A DNA stretch of 64,000 bases from Acidobacteriales bacterium 59-55 (GTDB lineage: Bacteria > Acidobacteriota > Terriglobia > Terriglobales > Acidobacteriaceae): positions 744,001-808,000 of the forward strand of contig MKSV01000007.1 of assembly GCA_001897435.1 (NCBI GenBank). Reading direction: 5' to 3'. Both the position numbers and the translations under genes were made by a program. The notes below the pieces were generated by a model. It saw only the letters and a program-made list of their open reading frames with translations, searched no databases and was not told the DNA's origin. Positions 286 through 3,387 of this stretch are shown here, in pieces (positions within the stretch are counted from its first letter, which is position 1; each line of letters begins with the position of its first letter).

Positions 286-340
286 ATTTCTCCAGTCAAT
301 TCCTGACGCGTTAGATGCAGATAGTATGCCCTGCGGCGGC

Positions 341-940
341 TCAAGGAAGACAGTATGGAGCCTGGTTCAGCGCGGCGATCAGAGTGGTGACAGTCTGATC
401 CGGAGTAAGCGCAGCGGTATCGACGGTGAGACGGGCGAGGCGGAGATAGAGGGGGTGACGGGCGGCGAAGCGAAGCTGTGCGGCCTCGGGATCTTCGAGC
501 ACGGGACGGGCGATGTTCTGCAACATGCAGCGGTCGAAGAGGGTGGGGAAGGGCGCGTCCAGGAAGATGGTGAACGTTGCCGGAGTTTGTTCGAGCAACA
601 GGCGATTGGTAAGGCCCTCCGGCGTTCCGCCGCCGAGCGCGAGGACGGTGTTGGGGCGTCCGAGAGCCGAGGCGAGCGCCGTAGATTCGAGGCGGCGGAA
701 GTGAGCTTCGCCATGACGCTCGAAAAGTTGGGGAATGGTGGCCCCGGCGCGTTGTTCCAGATGGGCATCGAGATCGAGGAAGGTCCAGCCGAGACGCAGG
801 GCGAGGATGCGCCCGATCGTCGATTTGCCGGCGCCCATGAACCCGGTGAGGACGAGGCGGCGAAGATGGGCAGGGATGATGAGTTCGCCGGACGGCTTTA
901 AAACCGGCTCGGCCAGCGTATCTGCTTCATTGGGTGTCAT
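341..940 (-). CDS. aroK: shikimate kinase
   Basis: This 199-residue cytoplasmic enzyme phosphorylates shikimate with ATP, the fifth step to chorismate. It has a Walker A motif GFMGAGKST at residues 33-41, the FLDLDAHLE substrate/Mg segment, the substrate-contacting FRRLE and the LALGGGTPE loop, in the order usual for AroK/AroL. There is an N-terminal extension of about 25 residues compared with the 170-175 residue family standard. It is preceded by a 120-base leader with a probable aromatic leader peptide and hairpins (see 1001-1189), which would tie its expression to Phe/Tyr/Trp supply. It is followed by the AI-2E permease. Confidence 0.93.
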   Translation of the reverse strand: MTPNEADTLAEPVLKPSGELIIPAHLRRLVLTGFMGAGKSTIGRILALRLGWTFLDLDAHLEQRAGATIPQLFERHGEAHFRRLESTALASALGRPNTVLALGGGTPEGLTNRLLLEQTPATFTIFLDAPFPTLFDRCMLQNIARPVLEDPEAAQLRFAARHPLYLRLARLTVDTAALTPDQTVTTLIAALNQAPYCLP

Positions 941-1000
941 AACTTCTCCTTTTTAGTGTAGTACGTCTGTTTTCTGGTCGATAGAGTTGGAAGCAAACAT

Positions 1001-1030
1001 GCAAAAGCCGCAACCTTTTGGGTTGCGGCT
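1001..1030 (-). terminator. putative attenuator/terminator hairpin upstream of aroK
   Basis: Read on the minus strand, AGCCGCAACC (1030-1021) pairs perfectly with GGTTGCGGCT (1015-1006) around a five-base loop and is followed by TTT and a looser T-rich run. It is about 60 bases before the aroK start and 35 bases after the stop codon of the small leader ORF, the position of an attenuator. It could instead simply terminate the upstream sigma/anti-sigma transcript. The U tract is short, so its efficiency is uncertain. Confidence 0.5.
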
Positions 1031-1043
1031 CGGGAAGTTCGAG

Positions 1044-1074
1044 GACTCTGAAGGTGGATGAGGTTCAGAGAGTC
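1044..1074 (-). other. second hairpin overlapping the leader stop codon
   Basis: On the minus strand GACTCTCTGAA (1074-1064) pairs with TTCAGAGTC (1052-1044) with one bulged base and an 11-base loop. The stem contains the TGA of the 28-residue leader ORF, so a ribosome terminating there would melt it. It lies between the aromatic codon run and the terminator hairpin and could act as a pause or alternative structure. This is inference from base pairing only. Confidence 0.4.
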
Positions 1075-1151
1075 ATGCGAGTGCTCCGCCGGGCCGCACA
1101 AAAGGGCCAGTAGCGGAAGGTAAAGCTGACGGTCTGGAGACGGCTCGACAT
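1065..1151 (-). CDS. putative aromatic leader peptide of aroK (28 aa)
   Basis: This small ORF codes for 28 residues, with codons 10-17 reading FTFRYWPF: five aromatic residues in eight, using all three products of the shikimate pathway. It sits between the anti-sigma gene and aroK, has a promoter-like sequence just upstream and two hairpins just downstream. There is no Shine-Dalgarno sequence, but the predicted transcription start is only a few bases before the ATG, so it could be leaderless. By analogy with trp/phe leader peptides, ribosome stalling at these codons would relieve termination before aroK. No homologue was searched; composition and position are the evidence. Confidence 0.5.
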   Translation of the reverse strand: MSSRLQTVSFTFRYWPFCAARRSTRMTL

Positions 1152-1154
1152 GCT

Positions 1155-1189
1155 GGATAGAAGATACACCGGATGCCGAGCCGTCGCAA
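1155..1189 (-). promoter_or_regulatory. putative promoter of the aroK leader
   Basis: On the minus strand TTGCGA (1189-1184) and TATCTT (1166-1161) are separated by 17 bases, each matching four of six positions of the sigma-70 consensus. The expected start is near 1154, only about 3 bases before the ATG of the leader peptide. It lies just past the anti-sigma stop codon, so aroK need not depend on the sigma-factor operon. Confidence 0.4.
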
Positions 1190-1194
1190 GTCCT

Positions 1195-1500
1195 TTATGA
1201 GTGAGATGGATTCTGGCCGGCTTCGTCAGTTCGGTCCGAGTTGAGGCCTTCCTGGATCTTCTTCCAGACGTTGTCGCTAGGCTCGTGCGTGGGTTGAAGC
1301 AGGAGACTGGCCTGATCGGCGATGTACTGCAGGTCCCGCACCAGGGCCGAACAGTTTTCGCAGGTCTTCAGATGGGCGACAAGACAGGGATCTTCGGGTT
1401 CACCGCTGCCGCCCGAGGCGAAGAGATCCGGCAGTTGCTCCTGGAACTCCGCGCAAGAAATGGTGGCAGGCGGTTTCGGATTCGAATTCTGCGAAGTCAT
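1195..1500 (-). CDS. zinc-finger (ZAS/HC2-type) anti-sigma factor
   Basis: This 101-residue soluble protein contains HLKTCENC near residues 43-50, the HxxxCxxC zinc-binding element of the ZAS anti-sigma domain, with a further Cys at residue 16 (SCAEF). Its start overlaps the end of the sigma-factor gene by four bases (ATGA), the arrangement of sigma/anti-sigma pairs. No membrane segment is visible, so it would be a cytoplasmic, possibly redox-sensing, regulator of the partner sigma factor. The assignment rests on motif and context. Confidence 0.75.
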
Positions 1501-2159
1501 TTGGCGGCCTCCTTGAGGCCCGCTTGCCGGATAGACTGCTCGGGTTGACGAAGCAGTTCGCGAAGCTTAAGTCGTGCCTTGTGTAGCTGGGATTTACTGT
1601 TTCCGGTTGAGCATTCGAGCATAGTCGCAATTTCATTATGCTCGAAACCCTCGACATCGTGAAGGACGAATACCATGCGGTAGCCGGGCGGCAGGGAAGC
1701 CACGGCCCGTTCCAGAGCGACGCGGTCGACCGAACCGGTCAACTGTGGATCGCGGCTGCCGAAGTCGCGCTTCGGCGCATCGTCATCCGACGGATTGATG
1801 GTCTCTTCGAGAGAGACGAGGTTCAGGCCCTTTTTGCGCAGATGCATAAGGACGAGATTAACGGTGAGGCGATGCAGCCAGGTGGAGAAGGCCGACTCGC
1901 CGCGAAAGCTGCCGATCTTGCGGAACAGGTGCAGGAAGGCTTCCTGGGTCATGTCCTCGGCTTCGGAGACATTGCCCAGCATGCGCAGGCAAAGGGTGTA
2001 CACGCGGCGCTTGTGAAGCGCGTAAAGCTTGGAAAACGCTTCGGCATCACCTGCCTTCGCGCTCTCGATCGCTTCAGCTTCGCCGGCAATAGGTGGATTT
2101 CGTTTAAAGAGGCTGGGACCCGGCTTGATTTCAGTCATTCGTAGGCCTTGCTGCTCCAT
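1497..2159 (-). CDS. ECF-family RNA polymerase sigma factor
   Basis: This 220-residue protein has region 2 ([15 protein letters not shown], then [18 protein letters not shown]), a linker, and region 4 ([25 protein letters not shown]) ending in the helix that binds the -35 element. It lacks regions 1 and 3, as expected for extracytoplasmic-function sigma factors of the RpoE type. It is coupled by a 4-base overlap to the anti-sigma gene downstream. A 10-bp palindrome GAACTTGTTC lies 16-25 bases before its start. Confidence 0.92.
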
Positions 2160-2322
2160 AGGCTAAAAACTCCGGAACTTGTTCGTGCAACGCTATCCTT
2201 TCGTCTGCCAGAAGACTGCTGCAAAACGAAGATGCTCTCATGGTTTCTTTCGTTTGACTGGAAAGCTTGCTCAAAGGTTGTGTCTGCCTCTTGATATAGC
2301 GGATTCCAAAGGGTTTCGGAAA

Positions 2323-3387
2323 TTATGATCCAATGAACCGGGCGTAGAGGGATCGCGCCACGGTGATGTCGGTTGTGCCCTGAACAATGGCGCGGCCATC
2401 GGCGAACAGGGTGAGGGTGTGGGGCGAGCGCTCGAAGCGGAGAAGCAGGTCGTTGAAGCGGACATTGCCGTGAGGAGCCAGGCGGTCGCGCATGGCGGCG
2501 AAGTCTACCGGGCGATGATGCTCGTGGATCTGAACAGAGTTGCGTCCGCAGAGCGTGATGTGAGGGCGGCCTTCACCGGCAAGATGGGTGAAGTGACGCT
2601 GGCCGCAGACGGCGCAGTCTGGCCGTGGCCGGGCGGTCGATATCTCCGATCTTTCGCTGGTCCACAGATCGAAGGAGAGCAGAGAGCGGCGCATGAGATT
2701 GGGCTGGCCGGTGAGGAACTTAAGGGCTTCAGTGACCTGAATGGAGGCGGCGAAGTTGACGGCAGTAGCAAGGATGCCGGAGGTATCGCAGGTCTCGACC
2801 GGGCCGCTGGGCGGCTTGGGAAAGATGCAGGCAAGGCAGGCTGTGGGATTTGCCGCGCCGGGCAGGACGTTCATGGTGGCGGCGTAGGCTCCAATGGCCG
2901 CGGCGTAGATCCAGGGTCTGGACTGCTGAACGGCGTAGTCATTAAGCAGATAGCGGGTTTCGAAGTTGTCCGTGGCGTCGAGGATGAGGTCGGCAGAGCC
3001 GAGAAGTTCGGCTATGTTGGCGGGAACAAGATCGGCAATGTGCGCCTGGACGGTGACAGCGGAGTTGAACAGGGCGATCTTGCGTCGCGCCGCCTCTGCC
3101 TTGGGGAGAGATTCAAGCGCGTCGGCCTCGTCGAAGAGAACCTGGCGCTGAAGATTGGAGGGCTCGACAAAGTCGCGGTCGATCAGGGCGAGAGTGCCTA
3201 CGCCGGCTCGGGCGAGCAACGAGGCCGATGCGGCTCCCGTTGCGCCGACGCCGATGACGGCGACATGAGCCGAGCCGAGCCGCTGCTGGCCAGCGGCTCC
3301 AATGCCCGGAAAGAGGATTTGACGGGAGTAGCGCTCCTGGTCGGCGATCAAAGTGTGAGGGACGTGTTGGCCTGGAGTCTCGGACAT
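2323..3387 (-). CDS. ThiF/MoeB-family adenylyltransferase for a ubiquitin-like sulfur carrier
   Basis: This 354-residue E1-like enzyme adenylates the C-terminus of ThiS or MoaD. It shows the nucleotide loop GVGATGAASASLLARAGVG at about residues 47-65, the IDRDFVEPSNLQRQ segment, DATDNFETR with the Mg-binding Asp, and zinc Cys pairs (CLAC near 193-196, CAVC near 259-262). The C-terminal 90 residues are not a rhodanese domain and resemble an extra beta-grasp-like tail. Genes for MoaD (18.8 kb) and ThiS (28.3 kb) are in the same window, but which it serves cannot be told. It is divergent from the Omp85 operon. Confidence 0.85.
   Translation of the reverse strand: MSETPGQHVPHTLIADQERYSRQILFPGIGAAGQQRLGSAHVAVIGVGATGAASASLLARAGVGTLALIDRDFVEPSNLQRQVLFDEADALESLPKAEAARRKIALFNSAVTVQAHIADLVPANIAELLGSADLILDATDNFETRYLLNDYAVQQSRPWIYAAAIGAYAATMNVLPGAANPTACLACIFPKPPSGPVETCDTSGILATAVNFAASIQVTEALKFLTGQPNLMRRSLLSFDLWTSERSEISTARPRPDCAVCGQRHFTHLAGEGRPHITLCGRNSVQIHEHHRPVDFAAMRDRLAPHGNVRFNDLLLRFERSPHTLTLFADGRAIVQGTTDITVARSLYARFIGS

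Follow-up and report, generated by a model that had tools for sequence, protein, structure and literature searches.

A known attenuator of an aromatic amino acid pathway is the Escherichia coli trp leader, in which a short ORF with Trp codons is followed by mutually exclusive antiterminator and terminator hairpins that act on trpE. Phe leader attenuators of gamma-proteobacteria (pheA, pheST) place a Phe-rich leader before aromatic genes, and Rfam holds families named Trp_leader and Phe_leader. The ilvGMEDA and thr leaders are cases in which one leader senses several amino acids (the branched-chain ones, or Thr and Ile), and to our knowledge there is no aromatic example of such a multi-amino-acid leader. 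Excerpts from PMC1262725 mention Phe leader attenuators and describe classical trp attenuators in Actinobacteria (Corynebacterium, Streptomyces), with a leader peptide, a GC-rich terminator, and conserved triple complementary segments. According to the same excerpts, these trp leaders carry double or triple UGG codons, C. diphtheriae has a trp attenuator before trpB2A, and no conserved structures stand before Phe or Tyr operons (PMC1262725). An excerpt of PMC7298713 states that rnTrpL of Sinorhizobium meliloti begins with the ATG of trpL, and a table entry in PMC2864571 gives the pheA motif of Actinobacteria as a candidate cis-regulatory RNA.

In this study, we analysed a 64,000-nucleotide stretch of DNA from Acidobacteriales bacterium 59-55 (the window), in which a leader carrying Phe, Tyr, and Trp codons precedes aroK. 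Like the enterobacterial Trp leader and like S. meliloti trpL, this locus has a short ORF with regulatory codons and exclusive hairpins. It differs from the Trp leaders, with their Trp codons and trpE genes, in its mixed Phe/Tyr/Trp codons, its phylum, and its targets, which are aroK and, for homologous copies, DAHP synthase and chorismate mutase/pheA. The gamma-proteobacterial Phe leaders are similar in placing a Phe-rich leader before aromatic genes, but the leaders here are not Phe-only and have no Rfam match. Sensing of several amino acids recalls the ilvGMEDA and thr leaders, which respond to branched-chain amino acids or Thr/Ile, whereas the set here is aromatic. With S. meliloti trpL our leader also shares a leaderless start, predicted in our case (compared with an excerpt of PMC7298713). 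The trp attenuators in the excerpts from PMC1262725 share the leader peptide, terminator, and complementary segments but have double or triple UGG codons where ours are mixed F/Y/W, and the actinobacterial pheA motif, compared by its table entry alone, also precedes pheA but belongs to another phylum (PMC2864571). The class of mechanism is known; what appears to be new is mixed aromatic sensing, the presence of homologous leaders at multiple steps of the same pathway, and the probably (near-)leaderless layout of the aroK and trpB leaders. The first-pass annotation knew of no account of mixed aromatic attenuation of shikimate kinase, and the literature we searched likewise held no description of an aroK attenuator or of an acidobacterial aromatic attenuator; subscription work, for example that of Lopatovskaya et al. 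on bacterial attenuation, may hold predictions.

Results

All features of the locus lie on the minus strand of the window, where the gene order was read as ECF-type sigma factor gene, anti-sigma-like gene, leader, and aroK. The putative regulated gene, aroK (341..940), encodes shikimate kinase (Pfam PF01202 SKI, 129.4 bits; matches to NCBIfam shikimate kinase models were below the model cut-offs) and has a Shine-Dalgarno sequence, AGGAG, at 946..950. The upstream neighbour of the leader, the anti-sigma-like gene (1195-1500), gave a sub-threshold anti-sigma match and no match in Pfam. Direct reading recovered the promoter pair, the 28-codon ORF, the stop hairpin, and the terminator that the first-pass annotation had placed between these genes. 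The -35-like hexamer TTGCGA (1184..1189) is followed, after a 17-nt spacer, by the -10-like hexamer TATCTT (1161..1166), which is kept as TAnnnT and lies 9 nt 5' of the leader ATG. The leader peptide ORF, MSSRLQTVSFTFRYWPFCAARRSTRMTL, occupies 1065..1151 (28 codons, ATG at 1151 to TGA at 1065) and lacks a Shine-Dalgarno sequence, and its putative sensor codons, codons 10-17 at 1101..1124, read FTFRYWPF (F10, T, F12, R, Y14, W15, P, F17). The 257 nt up to aroK, promoter included, folded 5 s.d. below dinucleotide shuffles, and a simple promoter/terminator scan of the window listed neither the leader promoter nor the terminator. The promoter and the beginning of the leader also fall within a 13-bp hairpin (GACGGCUCGGCAU/AUGUCGAGCCGUC, 1139-1185), which would form only in RNA reading through from upstream and had no evident counterpart among aligned relatives.

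The predicted RNA elements follow one another from the sensor codons to the terminator. Region 1 (codons R13-W15, 1107..1116) is the 5' arm of a candidate 1:2 protector hairpin, weak in the window, and region 2 (TGCGGC, CGGAG; 1084..1098) is, from folding and pair counts, the partner of either region 1 or region 3. The stop-codon hairpin (1046..1070), formed by CTCTGAA at 1070-1064 and TTCAGAG at 1052-1046, is the inner helix of the predicted antiterminator. Region 3, CTTCCCGAGCCGCA (1024..1037), serves as both the 3' arm of the antiterminator and the 5' arm of the intrinsic terminator (1003..1030), which has a 10-bp stem, a 5-nt loop, and a U-tract. The stem is perfect (AGCCGCAACC at 1030-1021, GGTTGCGGCT at 1015-1006) and is followed by TTT; the U-tract is short, UUUU then GC, and 65 nt separate the end of the stem from the aroK ATG (940). 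TGCGGC at 1098-1093 is complementary to GCCGCA at 1029-1024 on direct reading, as had been claimed, and this pairing turned out to be the outer helix of a longer antiterminator. Folding of window fragments gave -28.7 kcal/mol for the antiterminator, -19.8 kcal/mol for the terminator, and -8.0 kcal/mol for the 1:2 hairpin.

We searched related genomes by BLASTN (E<=0.01) with a 271-nt block from upstream of aroK. Matches were found in 46 of 62 genus genomes (40 of the 47 good genomes), several of the weaker ones among these 46 being to the terminator alone or to the trpB copy. We read the context of 50 genus match loci: the element stood immediately 5' of aroK in 40, and the other 10 comprised four trpB leaders and six terminator-only matches. 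A sigma/anti-sigma pair lay upstream in 26 of the 40 aroK loci, a layout that includes the window, and 14 of the 40 (L006, L007, L011, L013-L019, L021, L022, L030, and L071) had no such pair directly upstream on the same strand within the roughly 1.5 kb read. In named GTDB records, the element was immediately 5' of aroK in 13 of 13 Acidobacteriaceae loci, which are not independent, since at least 10 appear to have been searched already and most of those had been used to build the model; they include Edaphobacter lichenicola strains, Granulicella, and Bryocella, and the genus itself lies around Edaphobacter. None of 35 other named loci (Bradyrhizobium, Thermoanaerobaculia, one Acidobacteriales MAG, and others) had the element before aroK.

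Coding of the leader was assessed in alignment A1, which holds 38 aroK leaders, and alignment A2, which holds trpB leaders. Two codons were invariant columns in A1 (38/38), namely TTT for Phe10 and TGG for Trp15. The start codon was ATG in 37 leaders and GTG in one, and 37 of 38 leaders had Tyr-Trp in the frame of the start codon, at distances differing by multiples of three only; the exception, L025, reads YCFW. F17 was not conserved in A1. Among 34 gap-free aroK leaders, codon 12 was F, L, Y, or C and codon 13 was C, S, R, or G, and in 32 of 32 gap-free trpB leaders codon 13 was R. The Phe codon at position 10 was TTT, mostly followed by A, in all 34 aroK and all 32 trpB gap-free leaders, and never TTC. 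Mean entropy at codon positions 1-3 was 0.80, 0.92, and 0.78 in aroK leaders and 0.81, 0.81, and 0.93 in trpB leaders, so that third positions showed no extra variability over first and second positions in the former and only slightly more in the latter. The rows of this third-position test had been preselected for in-frame Tyr-Trp, and conservation at Y14 and W15 was judged from the A1 columns instead. Because there is little general synonymous signal, it is the ATG, the conserved frame, and the aromatic codons, where selection is visible, that speak for coding.

The aromatic content itself was above chance. F, Y, and W occurred together in 74 of 74 aroK leader ORFs (73 distinct places, L343 being the same place as L062) vs 12.8% of dinucleotide-shuffled ORFs, and within 8 codons of each other in 74 of 74 vs 3.4%. 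The leader ORFs had first been chosen with an aromatic requirement; a repeat by the nearest-ATG rule without it, which dropped three loci lacking an ATG in range and the masked locus L332, returned the same ORFs. A predicted leader ORF with codons for the pathway end products, as expected of an attenuator, is present. Downstream of the sensor codons the pattern of conservation was of another kind: most bases of region 2 were invariant or close to invariant in A1, and a 1-nt indel 3' of region 2 changed the frame in many relatives while GCGGCC, GGAG, CGCATG, and CTCTGA were largely kept. The alignment indicates that the first half of the leader is kept as codons and the second half as RNA.

The RNAalifold consensus of the gapped alignments was poor, and per-sequence folding was used. 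In A1, 99.2% of the terminator cells were paired, with three pairs changed on both sides; in 31 further aroK leaders the values were 98.4% and four doubly changed pairs, and in 46 trpB leaders 98.6% and three. The stop-codon hairpin was paired in 89.4% of A1 cells, with five rows resembling an alignment slip. For the terminator and stop hairpin together, the A1 paired cells, double-change cells, and covariation score were above all 500 shuffles, and the doubly changed pairs exceeded 478 of 500. These results point to a putative intrinsic terminator between the leader and the structural gene. The first-pass annotation had suggested looking upstream of aroK in relatives for an F/Y/W-rich ORF and a covarying terminator hairpin, and both proved to be conserved.

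With the terminator 3' arm omitted, the GYGGC/GCCGC helix of the antiterminator folded in 36 of 38 genus aroK leaders, usually enclosing GGAG/CUUCC, UCG/CGA, and CUCUGA/UCAGAG, and the outer helix folded in 41-42 of 46 trpB leaders. In A1, 94.3% of antiterminator cells paired vs 25.7-54.3% in slid controls. Antiterminator covariation was scarce because the arms hardly vary: A1 had one doubly changed pair, which 423 of 500 shuffles equalled, and in a further test the shuffle count was 173 of 500. The folding predicts a mutually exclusive antiterminator that borrows the terminator 5' arm. The 1:2 hairpin, in which the RYW codons pair with region 2, was paired in 98.6% of cells in trpB leaders, with three doubly changed pairs (1 of 500 shuffles as high) and 25 double-change cells (0 of 500). 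At its third base, the Tyr codon paired as C-G in 23 of 46 trpB leaders and as U-A in 22, and in the two trpB leaders that had lost Tyr, L170 (RTW) and L146 (RSW), the hairpin partner had changed as well. In 31 further aroK leaders, 74.4% of 1:2 cells were paired and the covariation signal was absent. The predicted 1:2 hairpin would complete the classical 1:2 / 2:3 / 3:4 logic, clearly so in trpB leaders and not convincingly in aroK leaders.

The promoter pattern, TAnnnT placed 6-13 nt ahead of the leader ATG with a TTG hexamer 15-19 nt further 5', was present in 72 of 74 aroK leaders and 58 of 61 trpB leaders, and at 5 of 2840 control ATGs within the downstream sequence of the fetched loci. 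A Shine-Dalgarno-like motif before the leader ATG was found in 0 of 74 aroK and 5 of 61 trpB leaders. With the promoter pattern this close and the motif absent or rare, the mRNA of the aroK and trpB leaders probably starts within a few nucleotides of the leader ATG, i.e., it would be (near-)leaderless. Of the other leaders, only 2 of the 18 before DAHP synthase and 6 of the 16 before chorismate mutase/pheA showed the pattern, and it was found in none of the 5 remaining ones; the layout is therefore not general in the wider family.

A second copy of the leader, MTTFSSRFWFSFRYWHTVAASAE, was found in the same genome with its own terminator, 5' of trpB (G000:C3:417394-417539; adjoining trpB, TIGR00263, 613.9 bits). 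We built two covariance models, R1 from aroK leaders and R2 from 55 mixed leaders. R1 matched 147 of 398 family genomes, usually in two places per genus genome, and in 396 phylum genomes this narrow model matched 31, all within the window's family. The broader R2 matched 218 genomes in the family set of 398 and 116 in the class set of 399, where 37 of those matched belonged to other families; its further matches per genus genome were, by their coordinates, largely antisense to the same terminators. We fetched 140 listed matches, mostly from the tops of the lists and leaving out the weakest other-family matches (f2), and all 140 preceded aromatic genes: trpB in 62, aroK in 36, and DAHP synthase or chorismate mutase/pheA in 42. 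These genes were assigned by tblastn and by ORF and motif reading, and Pfam/NCBIfam confirmed five chorismate mutases, one prephenate dehydratase, two DAHP synthases, and one trpB. The order of the aromatic residues varied across genera (FWYRYCF, FTYPCLWW, FSYYRW, FSYRGYWW). The aroK attenuator of the first-pass annotation was supported in its F/Y/W ORF and RNA layout; it is not specific to aroK, given the homologues at trpB, DAHP synthase, and chorismate mutase/pheA.

Several trpB leaders (L329-L331, L334, L338, and L341) had a rearranged order or altered motif (FTYRSWW, FTFRYGAT, FTTRYGAT, or FTYRYWFQ then stop) and are useful cases of sensor drift. A weak R2 match outside the 140, L357 (G038:C11:197648-197782 plus downstream sequence, E 7e-4), was not before an aromatic gene and had a Cys-rich ORF, MTTISNTLSLRCCCCGCLAGVRG, and a hairpin with a T run before a peroxiredoxin-like gene; it is possibly a separate cysteine attenuator. 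A search of 31 genus genomes for an L357-like pattern gave 13 matches in 11 vs 9 for a reversed-pattern control, and among the 12 pattern-search loci read there was no second copy of the layout.

Codon content differed by target gene. Trp codons were present in 74 of 74 aroK leaders, in 61 of 61 trpB leaders after removal of one masked locus, and in 18 of 20 leaders before DAHP synthase. Among chorismate mutase/pheA leaders the count was 4 of 17, and among a further set of the pheA type 2 of 5, together 6 of 22; all 22 had Phe and Tyr codons. Under the nearest-ATG rule without an aromatic requirement, Trp was found in 16 of 18 DAHP synthase and 3 of 16 chorismate mutase/pheA leaders. One DAHP synthase leader, L308, probably has a wrong start. 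Since every leader used for model training contained Trp, the search was not biased towards Trp loss. Phylogeny confounds the Trp contrast, yet the contrast holds both inside the window's family (13 of 15 DAHP synthase vs 0 of 7 chorismate mutase/pheA leaders) and outside it (5 of 5 vs 6 of 15). The trpB leaders had, besides Trp, a Phe codon in 61 of 61 and a Tyr codon in 60 of 61. Phe and Tyr would be superfluous for a pure Trp sensor; trpB may respond with derepression when any of the aromatic amino acids is short, or Tyr may be retained for hairpin pairing.

Discussion

We propose that a ribosome-mediated transcription attenuator very probably couples aroK to the supply of charged tRNA for Phe, Tyr, and Trp. 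The conserved ORF, the covariation of the terminator, and the folding of the antiterminator in 36 of 38 leaders all support the attenuator-like structure with an F/Y/W leader that had been suggested at the outset. We infer the start site, translation, stalling, termination, and amino acid response from the sequence. Points against the proposal are the near absence of antiterminator covariation, the weak 1:2 hairpin in aroK leaders, the short U-tract, the low third-position signal, the Phe and Tyr codons kept in trpB leaders, the infrequent promoter pattern at targets other than aroK and trpB, and the weak match L357. Transcription would start at or just 5' of the leader ATG, and a ribosome would translate FTFRYW. 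If a cognate charged tRNA were scarce, the ribosome would stall over region 1, leaving region 2 (GCGGC..CGGAG) free to pair with region 3 (CUUCCCGAGCCGC); this pairing, closed inside by the CUCUGAA/UUCAGAG hairpin, would block the terminator, and aroK would be transcribed. If Phe, Tyr, and Trp were all plentiful, the ribosome would reach the stop codon and cover the inner CUCUGAA helix, region 2 would return to region 1 or be masked, and region 3 would join the terminator. The edge of a ribosome is some 15 nt away from its P site and, for an A site placed at Phe10, Phe12, Tyr14, or Trp15, would fall before or at region 2, so that region 2 could pair with region 3, and F17 would sit too far downstream for a role in stalling.

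The hairpin might instead be a mere terminator of the upstream ECF sigma/anti-sigma operon, with the ORF a chance frame, and such an operon does precede the element, both in the window and at 26 of 40 aroK loci of the genus. Synteny led us to reject this reading, which we regard as extremely improbable: at the 14 loci without an adjoining pair in the roughly 1.5 kb read the block is still with aroK, it has a promoter pattern of its own, and homologous blocks stand before trpB, DAHP synthase, and chorismate mutase/pheA. Nor is it at all probable that the ORF is incidental to a protein- or metabolite-binding RNA switch (T-box, riboswitch, or TRAP-like). A compact structured 5' RNA ahead of a biosynthetic gene would suit such a switch, but the in-frame aromatic codons are conserved and vary with the target gene, and a transcript beginning at the ORF would have no upstream aptamer. 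Moreover, no Rfam family, Trp_leader and Phe_leader included, matched at the gathering threshold in leaders L002, L190, L290, and L152, window 300-2400 gave only an unrelated snoRNA model at E<=1, and the Rfam T-box covariance model had no match in the window or the leaders tested; identity with an Rfam family, T-box, or riboswitch was rejected for want of a match.

A further possibility is nascent-peptide arrest, in which a specific FxFRYW peptide stalls the ribosome, alone or with a free aromatic ligand. The recurrence of a short F(T/S)FRYW-like motif in aroK and trpB leaders, with R in all 32 gap-free trpB leaders at codon 13, speaks for it, but the residues between the aromatics vary in aroK leaders (C, S, R, or G at codon 13) and the aromatic order changes across genera. 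Such shuffling fits codon content and not a fixed arrest peptide, which is disfavoured by both kinds of variation, and ligand-induced arrest that favoured expression would oppose feedback on a biosynthetic gene. We therefore consider arrest quite improbable and prefer tRNA-dependent attenuation at aroK.

Beyond aroK, it is reasonably likely that an aromatic attenuator family extends over the class Terriglobia and acts on DAHP synthase at the entry of the pathway, on aroK in its middle, and on chorismate mutase/pheA and trpB at its branches, with the sensor retuned for each target by codon swaps within a pairing-constrained hairpin, and with Trp retained at aroK and trpB and largely gone from chorismate mutase/pheA. 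Annotation of this leader family can draw on the alignments and covariance models. The leader system offers a specific, testable case in a major soil phylum, a mixed Phe-Tyr-Trp leader with homologues at several points of the pathway, where the RNA structure and the sensor codons covary and the choice of codons appears to match the branch under control. If true, the class-wide family would be a mixed three-amino-acid attenuator regulon coordinating the whole aromatic pathway.
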